Assembly (NCBI GenBank): GCA_026388185.1
Contig: JAPLKG010000011.1
Span: forward strand, 186,001-250,000
Reading direction: 5' to 3'
DNA from: Candidatus Eisenbacteria bacterium
GTDB taxonomy: Bacteria; Eisenbacteria; RBG-16-71-46; JAFGJU01
Length of the DNA stretch: 64,000 nucleotides
Part shown: piece after piece, positions 51,313 through 64,000 of the stretch
Layout of the letters: each line of letters opens with the position of its first letter
Position numbering within the stretch: position 1 is the first letter of the stretch
The notes under the pieces: model-generated
Seen by the model: only the letters and a program-made list of their open reading frames with translations
Databases searched by the model: none
Told to the model about the DNA's origin: nothing
Translations under genes and position numbers: made by a program

Positions 51313-51786
51313 ATGCCCAGACCCTGTAAGTTGAGAAGAGTGATGTGCGACCCTGATGCCGTGAGTTTCAAGCCATGCGGGATACCGCTCAGGGACCTTG
51401 AGGCCGTCTCTTTGACGTTGGACGAGCTGGAGGCGATCAGGCTTGCGGATCTTGAAGGATTGTATCAGGAGGATGCCGCCCAGAGAATGCGCATCTCCCG
51501 GCAGACCTTTGGAAACATAGTTTCCTCGGCTCACCGGAAGGTGGCGGATTTCCTGGTCAATTCCAAGAATCTGACCGTAGAAGGGGGTGTTGTCGTGATG
51601 CGAGAGCGTAGTTTCACGTGTGGCCAGTGCGGGCACGTGTGGCCGGTGGCGTTCGGAACCGGAAGACCGTGCGAGTGTCCCCAGTGTAAGAACGCGAACG
51701 TACAGCGCTCGGAGGATCAACGTTGCGTCGGACGAAGAGCCGGCCAAGGTCGTGGCCACGGATCATGTTGCAGGGGGTCGAAATGA
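51313..51786 (+). CDS. DUF134 DNA-binding regulator with zinc ribbon
   Basis: 157 residues. DUF134 family: MPRPCKLRRV start, DELEAIRLADLEGLYQEDAA and MRISRQTFGNIVSSA, a helix-turn-helix like sigma region 4; the C-terminal part has paired cysteines CGQCGHVW and CECPQCKN (zinc ribbon) and a basic tail. ATG at 51313 with GAGGAG just upstream. It shares an ATGA overlap with the next gene and sits behind the palindromic promoter. DUF134 proteins often accompany NifX/NifB-like iron-molybdenum cofactor proteins in anaerobes. Confidence 0.88.
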   Translation: MPRPCKLRRVMCDPDAVSFKPCGIPLRDLEAVSLTLDELEAIRLADLEGLYQEDAAQRMRISRQTFGNIVSSAHRKVADFLVNSKNLTVEGGVVVMRERSFTCGQCGHVWPVAFGTGRPCECPQCKNANVQRSEDQRCVGRRAGQGRGHGSCCRGSK

Positions 51787-52160
51787 AGCTGTGTATACCT
51801 ACTATCGATGCCAAGGGGATTGATTCCATTGTCTCTGACCATTTTGGGAGTGCACCGTATTTCACTCTGTTTGATACGGAGAGCAACGAGATTGCGGCGA
51901 CGGAGAATCCGCACGGCGAGCACACACACGGTGGATGCATGCCGGTTGCCGTGCTGAAGACGCTTCAAGCCGACGCAGTGCTCTGCAAAGGAATGGGAGC
52001 AAGAGCTGTCGGTCTGCTCGGAGAGGCAGGAATCAAAGCCCTTCTTGTCGACGCGAAGACCGTGTCGGAAGCAATCGAACAATTCAAGGCGAAGAGCACA
52101 AGAAGTCTGGATGCCGAGACTGCCTGTCGGAGACACGAGTGCCATTCGAAAACGGAGTGA
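51783..52160 (+). CDS. NifX/MTH1175-like cofactor-binding protein
   Basis: 125 residues of the dinitrogenase iron-molybdenum cofactor family: MKLCIPTIDAKGIDSIVSDH, GSAPYFTLFD, CMPVAVLKTLQADAVLCKGMGARAV and a LLVDAKTVSEAI end, with a histidine-rich HGEHTHGGC metal site. Small metallocofactor carriers; outside nitrogen fixation they belong to orange-protein-like or redox clusters. Start ATG overlaps the DUF134 stop (ATGA at 51783). Confidence 0.88.
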   Translation: MKLCIPTIDAKGIDSIVSDHFGSAPYFTLFDTESNEIAATENPHGEHTHGGCMPVAVLKTLQADAVLCKGMGARAVGLLGEAGIKALLVDAKTVSEAIEQFKAKSTRSLDAETACRRHECHSKTE

Positions 52161-55119: not shown

Positions 55120-57126
55120 ATGAACGAAGATGTCGTCACCTCTGATTCGAGGGTTCTTGTTACGTCAGCTTCTCACGAGCGCGAGGATTGTGCTGAACTT
55201 GTCCAGCCGTCTCCCTGTAGTCAGGCCTGCCCGATCGGGACGAACGTCAAAGCGTATGTTTCTCTGATTGCGACGGGCAGATTCGACGAAGCCCTTGCCG
55301 TGGCGAGCGAACCGAATCCTTTTCCCGGAATCTGTGGACGCGTCTGCACGCATCCGTGTGAAGACAAGTGCAATCGGAGCGAGCGCGATGACCCTGTTGC
55401 CATAGCGTGGCTGAAGCGCTTCGCGGCGGACTATGAGCTTCGCCGCGGAAGGGACAAGGTCAAGCCCGCCAACGTATGGCGGAAGGAAAAGATCGCCATC
55501 GTCGGCGCCGGGCCTGCCGGCCTAACTGCTGCCAAGGACCTGGTACTCAAGGGTTATCCTGTCACAGTGTTCGAGGCGCTGCCCAAACCGGGCGGGATGC
55601 TCTACTCGGGGATTCCCACCTTCAGGCTTCCGCGCCGCATCATTGATATCGAAATAGCCGCGATCAAGGACCTGGGCGTGACCATCAAGACTGGCACCAC
55701 CTTCGGAAAAGATGTCACGCTCGACTCTCTCAAGGCCGAAGGCTATAAGGCCTTCCTACTTGCCATAGGCGCCTACAAGAGTCTCAAGCTCGGCGTGCCT
55801 GGTGAAGAGCTGAACGGCGTCCACGATTGTCTGGGTTTTCTCTTCAAAGTGAACGAAGGTAAACATCCCGGTCTCTCCGGCAAAGTCGCCGTGATCGGCG
55901 GAGGAAGCTCGGCCGTTGACTCGGCGAGGGCGGCGGTCAGAGTGGGCGCGGAATCCGTCGAGATCTTCTATCGCCGAACTGAAAAAGAGATGCCTGCAGC
56001 GAAGACGGAAGTGGAGGAGGCAAAACACGAAGGCGTTAAGGTACACCTACTGGTGGCCCCCGTCGAGGTCATTGGGAAGGACGGCAAGGTTACGGCCATG
56101 AAGCTCCAGAAGATGCAGCTCGGCGAGCCGGACGCCAGCGGTAGACGACGGCCGGTTCCGATTGAGGGTTCCGAATACGTCGTGGAAATCGATCACGTCA
56201 TAAGTGCCATAGGCCAACAACCTGACGTGTCCTTTGCGCAGGAGATGAAAGACCTCAAGATCACGCGCTGGAATACCGTGGAAACAAACAGCGAGACGCT
56301 CAGAAGCTCTATGGAAGGAGTTTATGCCGCCGGTGACGCCGTGACCGGTCCGGCCACCGTTGTCGGGGCAATAGCCTCAGGTCACAGGGCGGCCTCCGCC
56401 ATACACAGTTTCTTGAGTGGAGAACGGATGGTTCTTCCGCCGGGGATGGGTGAGACGAGACGCGAATACGAGCTTAAGCCGCCCGAGCCGCCCGTTCTTC
56501 CCAGAAAGTCCATAGAGAAGCACGAGGTCAAGAGTTTCAAAGGGAATTTCGAGGAAATCGAACTCGGCTTCACCGAGGCCGCGGCCATGGAAGAAGCGCT
56601 GAGGTGCATGCGCTGTGGTCCGTGCTTCGAGTGCGAGCTCTGCATTCAGGAATGTGAGAAAGAAGTCATGGTGTTCGGGAGCTCTCGGAGCGAGATCTTT
56701 CCTTTTGTGGTACGAGTTCCCGAGGACGCGCGCGACTCTCTCGACGGCGCGCGCGCCGTCCTGTCACTTTCTGCGACAACTTCGGACGCCAAGCCTGAGG
56801 CGGGTCGGCAGACCGGGACCGCGGAGACTCAGATCGAAGGCACTCTCGTGAATATCGTTGCTGCCGTGAACGAAGAGCTATGCCGTGGATGCGGAAAGTG
56901 CGAAGAAGTTTGTCTCTATGCCGCTCCACGCGTGAGCTACAAGAAGGAGCGCGGAGCGCTCATTTCGTCCGTCAACGAGAAAGAATGCAAGGGTTGCGGC
57001 ACCTGTGTCGCGATGTGTCCGTCGGGTGCGATGCAACAGAAATACTTCAGTGACGAAATGATTATCCGAACACTGAAGGAGCATCTCGCCCCAGTGGGGG
57101 AAGAAGCTGCTACGGCAACCTCGTGA
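55120..57126 (+). CDS. GltD-like flavoprotein with ferredoxin domains
   Basis: 668 residues. Fer4_20 N-terminal domain (PCSQACPIGTNVKAYV, CGRVCTHPCEDKCNRSE), FAD motif VGAGPAGLTAAKDLVLKGY at about 128-146, NAD(P) motif VIGGGSSAVDSARAAV near 265, YAAGDAVTGPATVVGAIASG, then two 4Fe-4S clusters: CMRCGPCFECELC and CRGCGKCEEVC ... CKGCGTCVAMC. Electron transfer between NAD(P)H and ferredoxin-like partners; probably the electron acceptor of the two following dehydrogenase subunits, 85 bases downstream. Confidence 0.88.
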   Translation: MNEDVVTSDSRVLVTSASHEREDCAELVQPSPCSQACPIGTNVKAYVSLIATGRFDEALAVASEPNPFPGICGRVCTHPCEDKCNRSERDDPVAIAWLKRFAADYELRRGRDKVKPANVWRKEKIAIVGAGPAGLTAAKDLVLKGYPVTVFEALPKPGGMLYSGIPTFRLPRRIIDIEIAAIKDLGVTIKTGTTFGKDVTLDSLKAEGYKAFLLAIGAYKSLKLGVPGEELNGVHDCLGFLFKVNEGKHPGLSGKVAVIGGGSSAVDSARAAVRVGAESVEIFYRRTEKEMPAAKTEVEEAKHEGVKVHLLVAPVEVIGKDGKVTAMKLQKMQLGEPDASGRRRPVPIEGSEYVVEIDHVISAIGQQPDVSFAQEMKDLKITRWNTVETNSETLRSSMEGVYAAGDAVTGPATVVGAIASGHRAASAIHSFLSGERMVLPPGMGETRREYELKPPEPPVLPRKSIEKHEVKSFKGNFEEIELGFTEAAAMEEALRCMRCGPCFECELCIQECEKEVMVFGSSRSEIFPFVVRVPEDARDSLDGARAVLSLSATTSDAKPEAGRQTGTAETQIEGTLVNIVAAVNEELCRGCGKCEEVCLYAAPRVSYKKERGALISSVNEKECKGCGTCVAMCPSGAMQQKYFSDEMIIRTLKEHLAPVGEEAATATS

Positions 57127-57211
57127 GGACACCCGTTCTCACTCTGATGTTTGCGCCAACCTCGGGTTCCGGGAAGTCGCCGGCGTTTGCGCGCCATGCC
57201 GCAAAACAAAG

Positions 57212-59335
57212 ATGAGTTCAGCAGCAAGAATCACAAATCATCCCATAATAGACGTCGTCGAGAGGCGGGAGATTCCGTTCACGTTTAACGGCACGAAACT
57301 CACCGCCAAGGAAGGCGAAGTCATATCCTCGGCGCTTTTCGCGAACGGCGTTCATGAATTCGGCCATCATCCCAGGGACGGGAGTCCCCAGGGAATATTC
57401 TGCGTGAACGGCCAGTGTTCTCAGTGCCTGGTCATCGCGGACGGCGTGCCTGTCAAGGCATGTATGACTCTCGTCCGGAAGGACATCGATGTGCGAAGCT
57501 GCGAGGGCCTGCCTTCGCTCCCCGAGTTCGATGAGCCCGTTTCTTTCGAGGAGGTTCCCCAGTTTGACACGGAAGTGCTCGTCATCGGCGCCGGCCCCGC
57601 AGGCCTCTGCGCAAGTATCGAGCTTGGGAAGCTTGGTCTGAACGTAATTCTCATCGACGACAAGCCGGCGCTCGGGGGAAAACTGACCCTTCAGACGCAT
57701 CAATTCTTCGGCTCCAGAACTGATTGTTTCGCTGGCACGAGAGGGATTGACATTGCAGAGCTCTTATCCAGACAATTGGCCGAGCTCTCCAACGTGGAGG
57801 TGTGGACTCAATCACTTGCCGTCGGAGTGTTCCTGGACAGAAAGGTCGGAGTCCTTCGTTCCGGGCGGTACGTTCTCGTCTCACCCAAGATTCTTCTTGT
57901 AGCGTGCGGGGCACGAGAGAAGAGCCTTGGTTTTGTCGGTTGTGACTTGCCCGGCGTGTACGGCGCGGGTGCATTTCAGACTCTCGCCAACAGGGACTTG
58001 GTGAGACCCGCAGAGAAGCTCTTTGTCGTGGGCGGTGGGAACGTCGGTCTGATAGGAAGCTATCATGCGCTTCAGGCCGGCATCAAGGTTGCCGGACTGT
58101 GCGAAGCCCTGCCGGAGTGTACCGGTTACAAGGTGCACCTCGACAAGATCAGAAGGCTTGGCGTGTCCGTTTTCACTTCCCACACCGTAGTCAGAGCAGA
58201 AGGAAAGGGCCGAGTGACCGGCGTCACAATCGCCCGGTGCGGCAAGGACTTTAAGCCCATCGCAGGCACTGAGAAATCCTTCAAAGTTGACACAATCCTC
58301 ATTGCCGTCGGTCTTTCCTCTGTAAACGAACTGTTTCTCCAGGCCAAAGAGTGCGGCATGGAGGTTTACGCGGCCGGAGATTCGGAGGAGATTGCCGAAG
58401 CGAGCGCAGCCATTTTCAGCGGGAAGCTCCTTGGCCGCAAGATTGCGCGTCGGCTCAACGTGGAATGCGACATTCCTCCTGAATGGGAAGGACTCGCCTG
58501 CGTGTTGCGCAGCAAGCCGGGCCCCGTGCACGAACCGGACGCGCCTCCGCCGGGCCTGTTGAGATTCCCCGTGATCAGATGCGTTCAGGAGATCCCGTGC
58601 AACCCCTGCACCAAAGTCTGCCCCAAGAAGGCGATATTCATTCCCGGTGATTCGCTCATGGGGAGACCTCAGTTCAGGCGGGCGTGCCTCGGCTGCGCGA
58701 GGTGCGTTGCAGGCTGCCCGGGTCTTGCCATCGTGATGGTGGAGCTTGATTACGACCCCGAAGGGAAAGTCGCCCTCCTCACCGTGCCCTTCGAATTCTC
58801 GGAGGAAGTGATTCCTGAAGGAAAGCAAGTCGAAACCGCGGATTTCGAGGGGAAGCGGTTGGGCCACGGAACCGTGGTGGCCGTGAAGAACAATCCCACG
58901 CAGAATAGGTGCAGGCTCGTCCTGCTCGAGGTTCCGTACGCGGATGCTCTATCGGTCGCCGGGATAAGAATTCAAGAAGAGGAATCTCCGATCCCGGGCG
59001 AAATCTGCGCGGACACGGGCAAGGTCGGCGCGTCTGCGAAAACGGCCTCCATTGAAGATGAAGACATCATTATCTGCCGCTGCGAAAGGGTCGGGAGGAA
59101 GGCGATCGTAGAGCAGCTCAGGGCCGGCGTGAGGGACATGAACCACCTCAAGGCCGTACTGAGGCCCGGGATGGGATCGTGTGGAGGGAAAACTTGCAGG
59201 GAACTTATCCTCGGGATTTGCAGGGAAGAAGGGATAAGGCTTTCTGAAGTGACGCCGTCGACGTATCGGCCCTTTGAAGCAGAGGTGCCGCTGGCTGCCT
59301 TCTGCGGATGCAAGAACGAGAAGAGCGGAGGCTGA
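57212..59335 (+). CDS. Multidomain FAD/2Fe-2S/4Fe-4S subunit, HcnAB/PDH-alpha-like
   Basis: 707 residues. N-terminal 2Fe-2S (Fer2_4) domain with FCVNGQCSQCLV (about 15-105); FAD motif VLVIGAGPAGLCASIELGKL near 124; NAD-type loop VVGGGNVGLIGSYHALQAG; then CVQEIPCNPCTKVCPKK and CLGCARCVAGCPG clusters; C-terminal BFD-like 2Fe-2S motif with CRCERVGR and GMGSCGGKTC. This order joins HcnA, HcnB and ferredoxin modules in one chain, as in alpha subunits of dye-linked L-proline or opine dehydrogenases. Next gene is the catalytic subunit. Confidence 0.87.
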   Translation: MSSAARITNHPIIDVVERREIPFTFNGTKLTAKEGEVISSALFANGVHEFGHHPRDGSPQGIFCVNGQCSQCLVIADGVPVKACMTLVRKDIDVRSCEGLPSLPEFDEPVSFEEVPQFDTEVLVIGAGPAGLCASIELGKLGLNVILIDDKPALGGKLTLQTHQFFGSRTDCFAGTRGIDIAELLSRQLAELSNVEVWTQSLAVGVFLDRKVGVLRSGRYVLVSPKILLVACGAREKSLGFVGCDLPGVYGAGAFQTLANRDLVRPAEKLFVVGGGNVGLIGSYHALQAGIKVAGLCEALPECTGYKVHLDKIRRLGVSVFTSHTVVRAEGKGRVTGVTIARCGKDFKPIAGTEKSFKVDTILIAVGLSSVNELFLQAKECGMEVYAAGDSEEIAEASAAIFSGKLLGRKIARRLNVECDIPPEWEGLACVLRSKPGPVHEPDAPPPGLLRFPVIRCVQEIPCNPCTKVCPKKAIFIPGDSLMGRPQFRRACLGCARCVAGCPGLAIVMVELDYDPEGKVALLTVPFEFSEEVIPEGKQVETADFEGKRLGHGTVVAVKNNPTQNRCRLVLLEVPYADALSVAGIRIQEEESPIPGEICADTGKVGASAKTASIEDEDIIICRCERVGRKAIVEQLRAGVRDMNHLKAVLRPGMGSCGGKTCRELILGICREEGIRLSEVTPSTYRPFEAEVPLAAFCGCKNEKSGG

Positions 59336-59375
59336 GACTGCCGAGAGAAGCGAGAGAGCCAGGGGAACTAGCTTA

Positions 59376-60539
59376 GTGGAGAATTACGATGTCATAGTGG
59401 CCGGCGCAGGTAGCGTCGGACTTCCTAGCGCCTGCTATCTGGCAGACAAGGGACTCAGCGTCTGCGTGATAGAGAAGGAGCCTTCGGTCGGCCAGGGTCA
59501 GAACAAGGCCGCCATAGGAGGCGCGAGGGCGACGCATTCTGACCCTGCCAAGATAAGGCTCTGCCAGGAGAGTCTCAAGGTTTTCTCTTCGTGGAAAGAT
59601 GATCGCGGGGAGGACGTAGGGTGGAAGAAGGGGGGTTATTGCTTTCCCGTTTACCGAGAGTCCGAAGAGAAGACACTCAAGGGGATTCTGCCCGTCCAGA
59701 AGAAATTCGATCTCAACATCGACTGGGTCGACCCCGCGACGATAAAGAGGCTCATTCCCGGCGTGAATCCGAATGAACTCAGGGGAGGAACCTATTCGCC
59801 CGACGACGGCCAGGTCTCTCCTCTGCTTGTGGCGAGCTCCTATTACAGGCTCTGCGTATCGAAAGGCGTGAAGTTCGCGTTTCAGGAGGAAATCGTAGAG
59901 GTCACGCAGAGTCGAGGAAAGATAAAGGCGATTCGCACAAACATGAACGACTATTCTTCGGGAATTCTCCTAAACGCAGCGGGCGCCCGTGCGAGGGAGT
60001 TGGGCAAATTGTGCGGCCAGGACATTCCGGTTGTCCCCGACAGTCACGAAGGTGGAATCTCGGCTCCCGTTCAGATGTTCCTCGAACCCCTTGTTGTGGA
60101 CATGAGGCCCGGGTCCGACGGGAAGAGCTCGAACTTCTATTTCGGCCAGACCTCCGAGGGGCAGATCATTTTTTGCTACACCCCCGCTGATCCGTTCGTC
60201 GGCGGGGAAAGAAGAAGCCTTTCCGAGTTCATGCCCAGCGTGGGTAGGAGGCTTGTGGAGTTGATGCCGAGGCTCAGAAACCTACTCGTTCGAAGGTGCT
60301 GGAGAGGTCTTTACCCGATGACTCCCGACGGCAATCCCATAATCGGCAAGGTTGCAGAGCCCGAAGGTCTGTTCTTGGCCGTCGGCGCGTGCGGACAGGG
60401 ATTGATGATGGGGCCGGGTGTCGGGAGGAACATCGCCGAGCTTATCTCCACCGGTCGGCCTCTGATGGAGGAAGAGATTTTCGAACGGATGAGCGTTCAT
60501 CGGGATTTCTCAGCGGCGAAAGCTGAAGCGCTGCGTTAG
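59376..60539 (+). CDS. DAO-type FAD amine/amino-acid dehydrogenase (HcnC-like)
   Basis: 387 residues, catalytic subunit of the trio. FAD motif VIVAGAGSVGLPSACYLADKG at about residues 6-26, IGGARATHSDPAKIRLCQES, TYSPDDGQVSPLLVASSYY, a GLYPMTPDGNPIIG motif and ACGQGLMMGPGVGRNIAEL end, as in sarcosine/proline dehydrogenases and HcnC. GTG at 59376 follows AGGGGAA. Family substrates include glycine (HCN synthase), D-amino acids, L-proline and sarcosine; the specific substrate is open. Confidence 0.88.
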   Translation: MENYDVIVAGAGSVGLPSACYLADKGLSVCVIEKEPSVGQGQNKAAIGGARATHSDPAKIRLCQESLKVFSSWKDDRGEDVGWKKGGYCFPVYRESEEKTLKGILPVQKKFDLNIDWVDPATIKRLIPGVNPNELRGGTYSPDDGQVSPLLVASSYYRLCVSKGVKFAFQEEIVEVTQSRGKIKAIRTNMNDYSSGILLNAAGARARELGKLCGQDIPVVPDSHEGGISAPVQMFLEPLVVDMRPGSDGKSSNFYFGQTSEGQIIFCYTPADPFVGGERRSLSEFMPSVGRRLVELMPRLRNLLVRRCWRGLYPMTPDGNPIIGKVAEPEGLFLAVGACGQGLMMGPGVGRNIAELISTGRPLMEEEIFERMSVHRDFSAAKAEALR

Positions 60540-63190: not shown

Positions 63191-64000
63191 GTGGGAATTG
63201 AAGAACTCATAGCGGTAGCGGCGGGGGAGAGGGACGCGGATCTCGTACTGAAGAACGGCATGGTGGTGAATGTGTTCAGCGGGGAGATCTACAAAGCCGA
63301 CGTAAGCATTCAGGGCAAGAAAATAGCTGGCGTGGGATCGTATTCGGGCAGGAACTCCATAAACGTGGAGGGAAAGTACGTCTGTCCCGGTTTGATTGAC
63401 GGGCACGTTCACATCGAAAGCTCGATGGTTTCGGTCCCTGAGTTTGCCAGAGTCGTGGTGCCTCTGGGCACGACCACGGTGGTTGTCGATCCGCATGAGA
63501 TTGCCAACGTAATGGGATCCGAAGGAATTCTCTTCACCCTCAAGGCCAGTAAGTATAACCCATTAAATGTGTTTGTGATGCTTCCTTCATGTGTTCCTTC
63601 AACCGATCTGGAGACCGCCGGTGCGGAGCTGAAGGCGGTTGATTTGTTCCCGTTTCTCTCTCATAAGTGGGTTCTCGGTCTTGGCGAAATGATGAACTAC
63701 CACGGTGTAATCACTAGGGACGAAGACGTGATGGACATGATAAAGATCGCGAGCGGGAAGCGGATCGATGGCCATGCACCAGGTGTGACGGGTTGCAGAT
63801 TGAACGCATACGCCGCCGGCGGCATACAGTCTGACCACGAGTCCGTCAGCGTGGAGGAGGCAAGGGAGAAGCTGAGGGTAGGCTTTCACATCATGCTGCG
63901 CGAAGGTTCTGCAAGTAAGAACCTCCTCGACCTTCTTCCCTTGGTGAGCGAGCGAAACGCAGACAGGTTTATTTTTGTGACTGACGACAAGCATCCCGGG
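63191..64000 (+). CDS. ade: Adenine deaminase, 3' end outside window
   Basis: First 270 codons of an AdeC-type adenine deaminase (adenine to hypoxanthine, purine salvage), running off the right edge. GTG at 63191 after AAGGAG. Family motifs: ADLVLKNGMVVNVFSGEI, metal-binding GLIDGHVHIESSMVS, VDPHEIANVMG, SHKWVLGLGEMMNY and DGHAPGVTG, DHESV. Amidohydrolase superfamily with binuclear metal. The active-site end is missing only because of the window edge. Confidence 0.95.
   Translation, partial: MGIEELIAVAAGERDADLVLKNGMVVNVFSGEIYKADVSIQGKKIAGVGSYSGRNSINVEGKYVCPGLIDGHVHIESSMVSVPEFARVVVPLGTTTVVVDPHEIANVMGSEGILFTLKASKYNPLNVFVMLPSCVPSTDLETAGAELKAVDLFPFLSHKWVLGLGEMMNYHGVITRDEDVMDMIKIASGKRIDGHAPGVTGCRLNAYAAGGIQSDHESVSVEEAREKLRVGFHIMLREGSASKNLLDLLPLVSERNADRFIFVTDDKHPG

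Follow-up and report, generated by a model that had tools for sequence, protein, structure and literature searches.

The closest described counterpart of the system treated here is PDH1 (PH1363/PH1364, PDB 1y56), the L-proline dehydrogenase of Pyrococcus horikoshii, in which a beta subunit of the DAO fold with an R-x-W motif is combined with an alpha flavoprotein that has an N-terminal ferredoxin-like part. The same three building blocks, [2Fe-2S], FAD (flavin adenine dinucleotide)/BFD and DAO, are found in hydrogen cyanide synthase (HcnABC) and in the D-hydroxyproline and opine (OdhABC) dehydrogenases. As regards electron acceptors, the relevant systems are those of the Bfu family (HydABC, Nfn-ABC/StnABC), whose stated hallmark is a six-cluster BfuBC core (PMC9304861). 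This work covers three genes of a Candidatus Eisenbacteria bacterium (genome G000, 2.6 Mb, 97.9% complete), located in a stretch of 64,000 nucleotides (G000:C11:186001-250000), hereafter the window.

These genes probably encode a soluble multi-flavin L-proline dehydrogenase (probability about 0.6) whose electrons would be delivered to NAD(P) (nicotinamide adenine dinucleotide (phosphate)) or ferredoxin and not to a membrane chain. To judge from its sequence relatives, the substrate side of the complex resembles PDH1 and its acceptor side Nfn-ABC or Bfu enzymes. In the list of open reading frames (ORFs) of the window the three frames lie in line on the + strand (55120-57126, 57212-59335 and 59274-60539), and the coordinates and the Pfam layout (GltD-like flavoprotein, alpha, DAO) confirm the three-gene arrangement described in the original prediction.

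55120..57126, + strand: GltD/StnC-type FAD flavoprotein, 668 aa (Pfam, PDB match, motifs)
57212..59335, + strand: alpha subunit, 707 aa (Pfam, profile, fold, cysteine alignment)
59361..59366, + strand: AGGGGA, ribosome-binding-like motif, 9 nt 5' of the DAO GTG (sequence)
59376..60539, + strand: DAO-fold catalytic subunit, 387 aa, probable GTG start (Pfam, fold, alignment to relatives)

The DAO ORF opens at 59274. Since the proteins of relatives begin about 34 residues further in and AGGGGA precedes the GTG at 59376, this codon is the probable start, which would give a protein of about 387 aa beginning 40 nt after alpha. A search of the genome found one copy each of alpha and DAO.

The alpha-DAO pair

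The DAO subunit belongs to PF01266 (E 1.5e-57) and presents a FAD site. Its nearest solved relative by phmmer is 1y56_B, the beta subunit of PDH1 (the chain list names it sarcosine oxidase; the entry itself is the L-proline dehydrogenase of P. horikoshii). The profile of the DAO family gives 230.6 bits for PDH1 beta against 117.5 for the runner-up, and the same chain is the top fold match (template modelling scores 0.89/0.93, root-mean-square deviation 1.8) of an AlphaFold2 model with a predicted local distance difference test value of 88. Arg307-x-Trp309, invariant in 26 sequences, forms the R-x-W motif for flavin mononucleotide (FMN), which has been described for L-ProDH, D-HypDH and opine dehydrogenases (PMC4575208). 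None of the NCBIfam models reached its cut-off with this protein, and the plasmid-borne DAO relatives tried as named references were distant, mostly with generic annotation, and gave no substrate information. Tight clustering with one enzyme of fixed function, which would have contradicted the original prediction, was not observed, the nearest characterised enzyme being PDH1 beta at 29% identity.

The Pfam domains of alpha are Fer2_4 (19-96), Pyr_redox_2 (121-385), a 4Fe-4S domain (around 457-502) and Fer2_BFD (620-669). The N-terminal [2Fe-2S] site is invariant (Cys64-x4-69-x2-72-x11-84), the FAD/dinucleotide fold occupies residues 117-415, and two [4Fe-4S] clusters are assigned to Cys457,463,466,470 and 492,495,498,502; a beta-rich linker domain (around 515-595) and the BFD [2Fe-2S] site (Cys622-x-624-x32-657-x4-662) complete the protein. 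All 16 Fe-S cysteines are invariant across 27 sequences, so that the earlier description of a fused [2Fe-2S]/FAD/4Fe-4S/BFD subunit with additional 4Fe-4S clusters is borne out. By profile and fold, alpha is nearest to SoxA and PDH1 alpha (best matches 2gag_A and 1vrq_A). Among the 35 relative loci of the genome collection in which the pair was counted, 30 have it, and the contig ends in 4 of the other 5; this recurrence and the invariant cysteines argue against a chance association.

Compared with PDH1, which is archaeal, the window complex is bacterial, its alpha subunit of 707 aa contains the inserted 2x[4Fe-4S] domain, and it is linked to a GltD module. The first [2Fe-2S] motif of the PDH1/opine/D-hydroxyproline class (C-x4-C-x2-C-x11~12-C) is present in alpha, whereas the second (C-x-C-x15~20-C-x4-C; PMC4575208) appears in the same order with a longer spacing, x32, and for this reason the complex is filed as a distinct clade and not as a PDH1/Odh member. 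Kinship with the HcnABC/proline-dehydrogenase class, as claimed originally, is supported by the match to PDH1 beta, the R-x-W motif and the first [2Fe-2S] motif. In HcnABC and OdhABC, however, the [2Fe-2S] protein is a separate gamma subunit, while here it is fused to alpha and accompanied by 4Fe-4S clusters and a reductase.

Several known enzymes were considered and rejected. HCN synthase requires three separate subunits, and here Fer2_4 is part of alpha. Heterotetrameric sarcosine oxidase (SoxABDG) resembles the window complex in its alpha fold, with N-terminal Fer2 and FAD region, but the scores are far below the cut-offs (TIGR01372, 145.8 against 1164 bits; TIGR01373, 91.2 against 529.5), alpha has no aminomethyltransferase-type Pfam match and the operon contains neither a SoxD nor a SoxG gene. 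Glycine oxidase ThiO was discarded as well (TIGR02352, 113 against 250.8 bits), and so was classical PRODH/PutA, as no window protein matches PF01619.

The GltD-like subunit and the proposed electron path

The first gene of the operon encodes a protein with Fer4_20, Pyr_redox_2 and a C-terminal Fer4 dicluster. It has N-terminal [4Fe-4S] loops (Cys33,37,72,76,80,84), FAD and NADP(H) Rossmann folds with a YRRTEKEMPA motif, a cysteine cluster at 496-512 and a C-terminal HdrA-like ferredoxin domain with 2x[4Fe-4S] at 588-598 and 623-633. It is nearest to the GltD-type subunits of Nfn-ABC and StnABC, its best PDB match being 9bov_A, the GltD-like subunit of the bifurcating Nfn-ABC (E 4.7e-124). Its nearest counterpart in the Bfu family is the subunit through which NADPH enters Nfn-ABC; the window operon does not contain a BfuBC core. 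The protein is PRK12771-like and lies below every NCBIfam cut-off, including those of the small subunit (GltD) of glutamate synthase (GOGAT), which was rejected (TIGR01316/01317/01318: 378.6 against 471.75, 220 against 447.7 and 304 against 483).

The NADP(H) motif is kept in the window and in L038 and L039, the other two loci of its family, while the YRR motif is lost in L040, L059 and L060. In the alignment all six GltD sequences have Lys at the position of StnC Lys170, which is Lys99 in the window protein, as do StnC itself and NfnA of T. sibiricus, where NfnB (4ylf) has Glu. This Glu is presumably a ligand of the proximal [4Fe-4S] cluster. The GltD domain of StnC hands on electrons without bifurcating (PMC10482914), and because the window protein shares the Lys of this non-bifurcating subunit, we take simple exchange of electrons with NADP(H) to be its more likely role, ahead of bifurcation. 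The identity with an NfnB bifurcating subunit was rejected on the same residue, on the lack of an NfnA-like gene in the operon and on the SoxA/PDH1-like nature of alpha.

According to the proposed mechanism, L-proline would be oxidised at the FAD of DAO, giving 1-pyrroline-5-carboxylate (P5C), and a P5C dehydrogenase encoded elsewhere would convert this to glutamate. Electrons would leave DAO via an FMN expected at the DAO/alpha interface and pass through the FAD, [2Fe-2S] and [4Fe-4S] clusters of alpha to the GltD/StnC-type subunit, entering at its ferredoxin-like tail; the FAD of this subunit would exchange them with NADP(H), ferredoxin being probably a second partner. The original prediction that electrons go to ferredoxin or NAD(P) and not to a respiratory chain gains support from the relatives that replace GltD by a full HydBC/Bfu core, even though the path itself is one that we infer. 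In these relatives (Myxococcota and Fibrobacterota) the Bfu core probably couples the oxidation of proline and of reduced ferredoxin to the reduction of NAD+ by confurcation.

The proline/P5C couple has a potential of about -123 mV. For NAD+ and ferredoxin, values of -320 and -420 mV are given (PMC5861303), and physiological potentials of -280 and -500 mV, respectively, are quoted for the Bfu family (PMC9304861). By our own arithmetic with this value of -123 mV, reduction of NAD+ with proline as the only donor costs about 38 kJ/mol; with reduced ferredoxin as second donor the result is about +19 kJ/mol under standard conditions and about -12 kJ/mol at physiological potentials. Lactate dehydrogenase-EtfAB works on the same confurcation principle (PMC5861303), and LctBCD of Acetobacterium woodii, in which a moderately positive donor is oxidised with NAD+ using reduced ferredoxin, is an analogy between unrelated (Etf-based) proteins.

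For the window version, simple electron delivery has about an even chance. It is doubtful that the complex works as a confurcating proline:ferredoxin:NAD(P)+ oxidoreductase, either at the GltD FAD as in Nfn or with a NuoF/HydB-like module in trans. The energetics just described, the closeness of GltD to the Nfn/StnC family with its FRLP arginine, Arg169, retained, the Bfu core of sister clades and the HydB/NuoF-like genes on other contigs of the genome are in its favour; nevertheless, those genes lie inside clusters of their own, and both the Lys at the proximal cluster and the missing NfnA homologue point the other way.

Evidence on the substrate

The substrate is most likely L-proline, and the "N-methyl or imino compound" of the original prediction can be narrowed in this sense. 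Four lines of evidence lead to this assignment: the kinship with PDH1 and its R-x-W motif, the presence of P5C dehydrogenase without PRODH, the neighbouring genes, and the mutual avoidance of PRODH and DAO. PRODH (PF01619) was not found in the window's genome, in G001, in the single-contig relative G002 or in 25 of the 30 carriers of the pair, single absences being weak evidence as many carriers are incomplete metagenome-assembled genomes (MAGs). P5C dehydrogenase exceeds the model cut-off in the window's genome (706 bits against 659.65) and in G002; altogether 16 of the 30 carriers, the window's genome included, have it over a cut-off, 11 of them without PRODH. Genes adjoining the core encode PutP at L066 (641.8 bits, cut-off 515.5), P5C dehydrogenase (782 bits, cut-off 613.6) together with ornithine aminotransferase at L048, and a glutamate dehydrogenase-like protein at L039, whose best model (599 bits) stays under its cut-off of 750. 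Among genomes of the Eisenbacteria class, 6 have both PRODH and a DAO homologue, 17 only PRODH, 20 only DAO and 4 neither (Fisher p=1e-4), a value that overstates the avoidance because the genomes are related and most of the DAO homologues counted are only 26-32% identical.

Other observations weigh against a proline dehydrogenase coupled to NAD(P) and ferredoxin, beginning with the distance from PDH1 beta given above. Genomes of the class without the alpha-DAO complex commonly have an orphan P5C dehydrogenase as well: 13 of the 15 class genomes with such an orphan have some DAO homologue, but only 2 of these 13 carry the complex, which weakens the argument drawn from it. In the Krumholzibacteriota carriers no protein reaches the cut-off of a P5C dehydrogenase model; at seven of their loci (L045, L046, L047, L052, L054, L055 and L069) alpha-DAO is preceded by a carboxylase of PycB/oxaloacetate-decarboxylase type, and three loci continue with genes for 2-oxoacid:ferredoxin oxidoreductase and malic enzyme. 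Sequence kinship is not enough to assign the substrate, since proline is not accepted by one opine dehydrogenase subunit closely related to the archaeal L-ProDH (PMC4575208). As for the acceptor, electron flow from proline to NADP+ is uphill, so that the window version would need pulling by P5C consumption or a second low-potential donor, and the Lys at the proximal-cluster site speaks against bifurcation there.

It is accordingly worth weighing whether the same architecture oxidises sarcosine, dimethylglycine, glycine, a D-amino acid, hydroxyproline or an opine and feeds C2/C4 metabolism, which we consider unlikely. The DAO fold is common to SoxB, DMGDH, ThiO and DadA, changes of substrate are on record for this enzyme class (PMC4575208), and the Krumholzibacteriota operons would suit such a role. 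Against this stand the gap in profile score in favour of PDH1 beta, the SoxB, SoxA and ThiO models far under their cut-offs, the proline-pathway neighbours, and Tyr313, which is invariant in DAO where the GLRP motif of glycine oxidase has Arg. This site presumably takes part in substrate binding.

Some further observations concern proline metabolism in these genomes. At L109:7983-10744 (G000:C6) a glycine C-acetyltransferase gene is directly followed by that of P5C dehydrogenase, so that threonine and proline catabolic genes are paired. In G059 (L088, L095), the genome of L040, P5C dehydrogenase is found in two halves about 460 kb apart, either a split gene or an assembly problem. A second DAO clade of the Eisenbacteria class (L117-L131, 26-32% identical) occurs mainly in genomes without PRODH; none of its 15 examined genes has an alpha gene within 1.5 kb, and it is possibly an independent proline dehydrogenase.

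Exchange of electron modules

MAGs that carry the alpha-DAO pair belong to seven bacterial phyla and, in one case, to an Asgard archaeon. In a table of 40 loci the modules upstream of it are the following (L009 and L010 come from the genomes already represented by L038 and L039):

GltD alone: the window's family
NuoEF fusion plus Fer2/Fer4/FlpD protein, or the latter only in some: eleven loci, mostly Myxococcota
NuoF, NuoE, Fer2/Fer4, GltD-FlpD, HdrBC-like: L040
GltD, Fer2/Fer4, HdrBC-like: L059, L060
HdrB-like gene: L042
No electron module: all other loci

Around a constant alpha-DAO core there are thus at least three modules: GltD/StnC-type, HydBC/Bfu-type and GltD with HdrBC-like proteins. 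In the alpha tree the GltD rows form one clade (100/100*), the L040/Krumholzibacteriota rows a separate one (100/100*), and the NuoEF rows a weaker group (89/88) along with two module-less rows. The NuoEF fusion scores 704.8 bits to bifurcating HydB against 347 to complex I and has invariant cysteines for all six clusters of the BfuBC core. This core (NuoE-like and NuoF-like) is present at L043, L044, L049, L050, L066 and L071, and complete HydBC-type cores with a BfuA-like Fer2/Fer4 protein lie 5' of alpha-DAO in Myxococcota and Fibrobacterota.

It is improbable that the GltD gene codes for a stand-alone NADPH:ferredoxin or glutamate-synthase-type flavoprotein and only happens to adjoin alpha-DAO: most other lineages lack GltD at this position and the window's genome has GltD-like genes elsewhere, but the gene order is kept in all three genomes of the family, the extra 4Fe-4S clusters of alpha need a partner, other clades fill the same slot with other NAD(P)/ferredoxin modules, and the GltD/GOGAT models stay under their cut-offs.

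Proline is plentiful in decaying protein. The potential at which it is oxidised is, however, too positive for NAD+ or ferredoxin to serve as the only acceptor, and anaerobes that have no quinone-linked PRODH must therefore degrade it by different means. A proline dehydrogenase that passes its electrons to modules of Bfu, GltD or Hdr type would fill this gap and account for proline breakdown in Eisenbacteria, Myxococcota and others with P5C dehydrogenase but without PRODH. We tentatively propose, at somewhat less than even odds, an undescribed family of anaerobic proline dehydrogenases, with one catalytic core and interchangeable electron modules of at least three kinds, that couples proline to NAD(P)+ and ferredoxin by confurcation. 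If true, this would add proline to the third substrates of the Bfu family, with the window version as an NADP(H)-linked variant. The third substrates listed so far are hydrogen peroxide, pyruvate, CO, aldehydes, aryl-CoA, NADP+, F420, formate and quinones; no amino acid is among them and "proline" does not occur in the main text of that paper (PMC9304861). A literature search, with poor coverage of subscription journals and therefore a weak negative, found no proline dehydrogenase with bifurcation, Bfu or Hdr modules.

Among the remaining loci, the alpha subunits of a Heimdallarchaeota MAG and an Eisenbacteria-class genome (L064 and L011) group together (100/99) on long branches, possibly through lateral transfer or a binning error, and a Polyangiaceae alpha (L063:1066-3186) has no adjoining DAO gene, the next genes resembling PheS and PheT. 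Elsewhere in the window's genome, L138:2543-10467 (G000:C3) combines NuoE, a NuoF-GltD fusion of 1059 aa, a glutamate-synthase-domain protein and glutamate dehydrogenase in one cluster, an arrangement suggestive of a bifurcation-type module that serves glutamate metabolism, and L139:4889-16826 (G000:C14) resembles Flx/Hdr systems, with NuoF-like, CCG-domain (HdrB-like) and GltD-like proteins clustered. Within the window itself, 51313-52160 encodes a DUF134 protein and, after it, one with a NifX/MrpORP-like dinitrogenase-cofactor domain, and positions 63191-64000 contain the first part of an adenine deaminase gene that the end of the window truncates.

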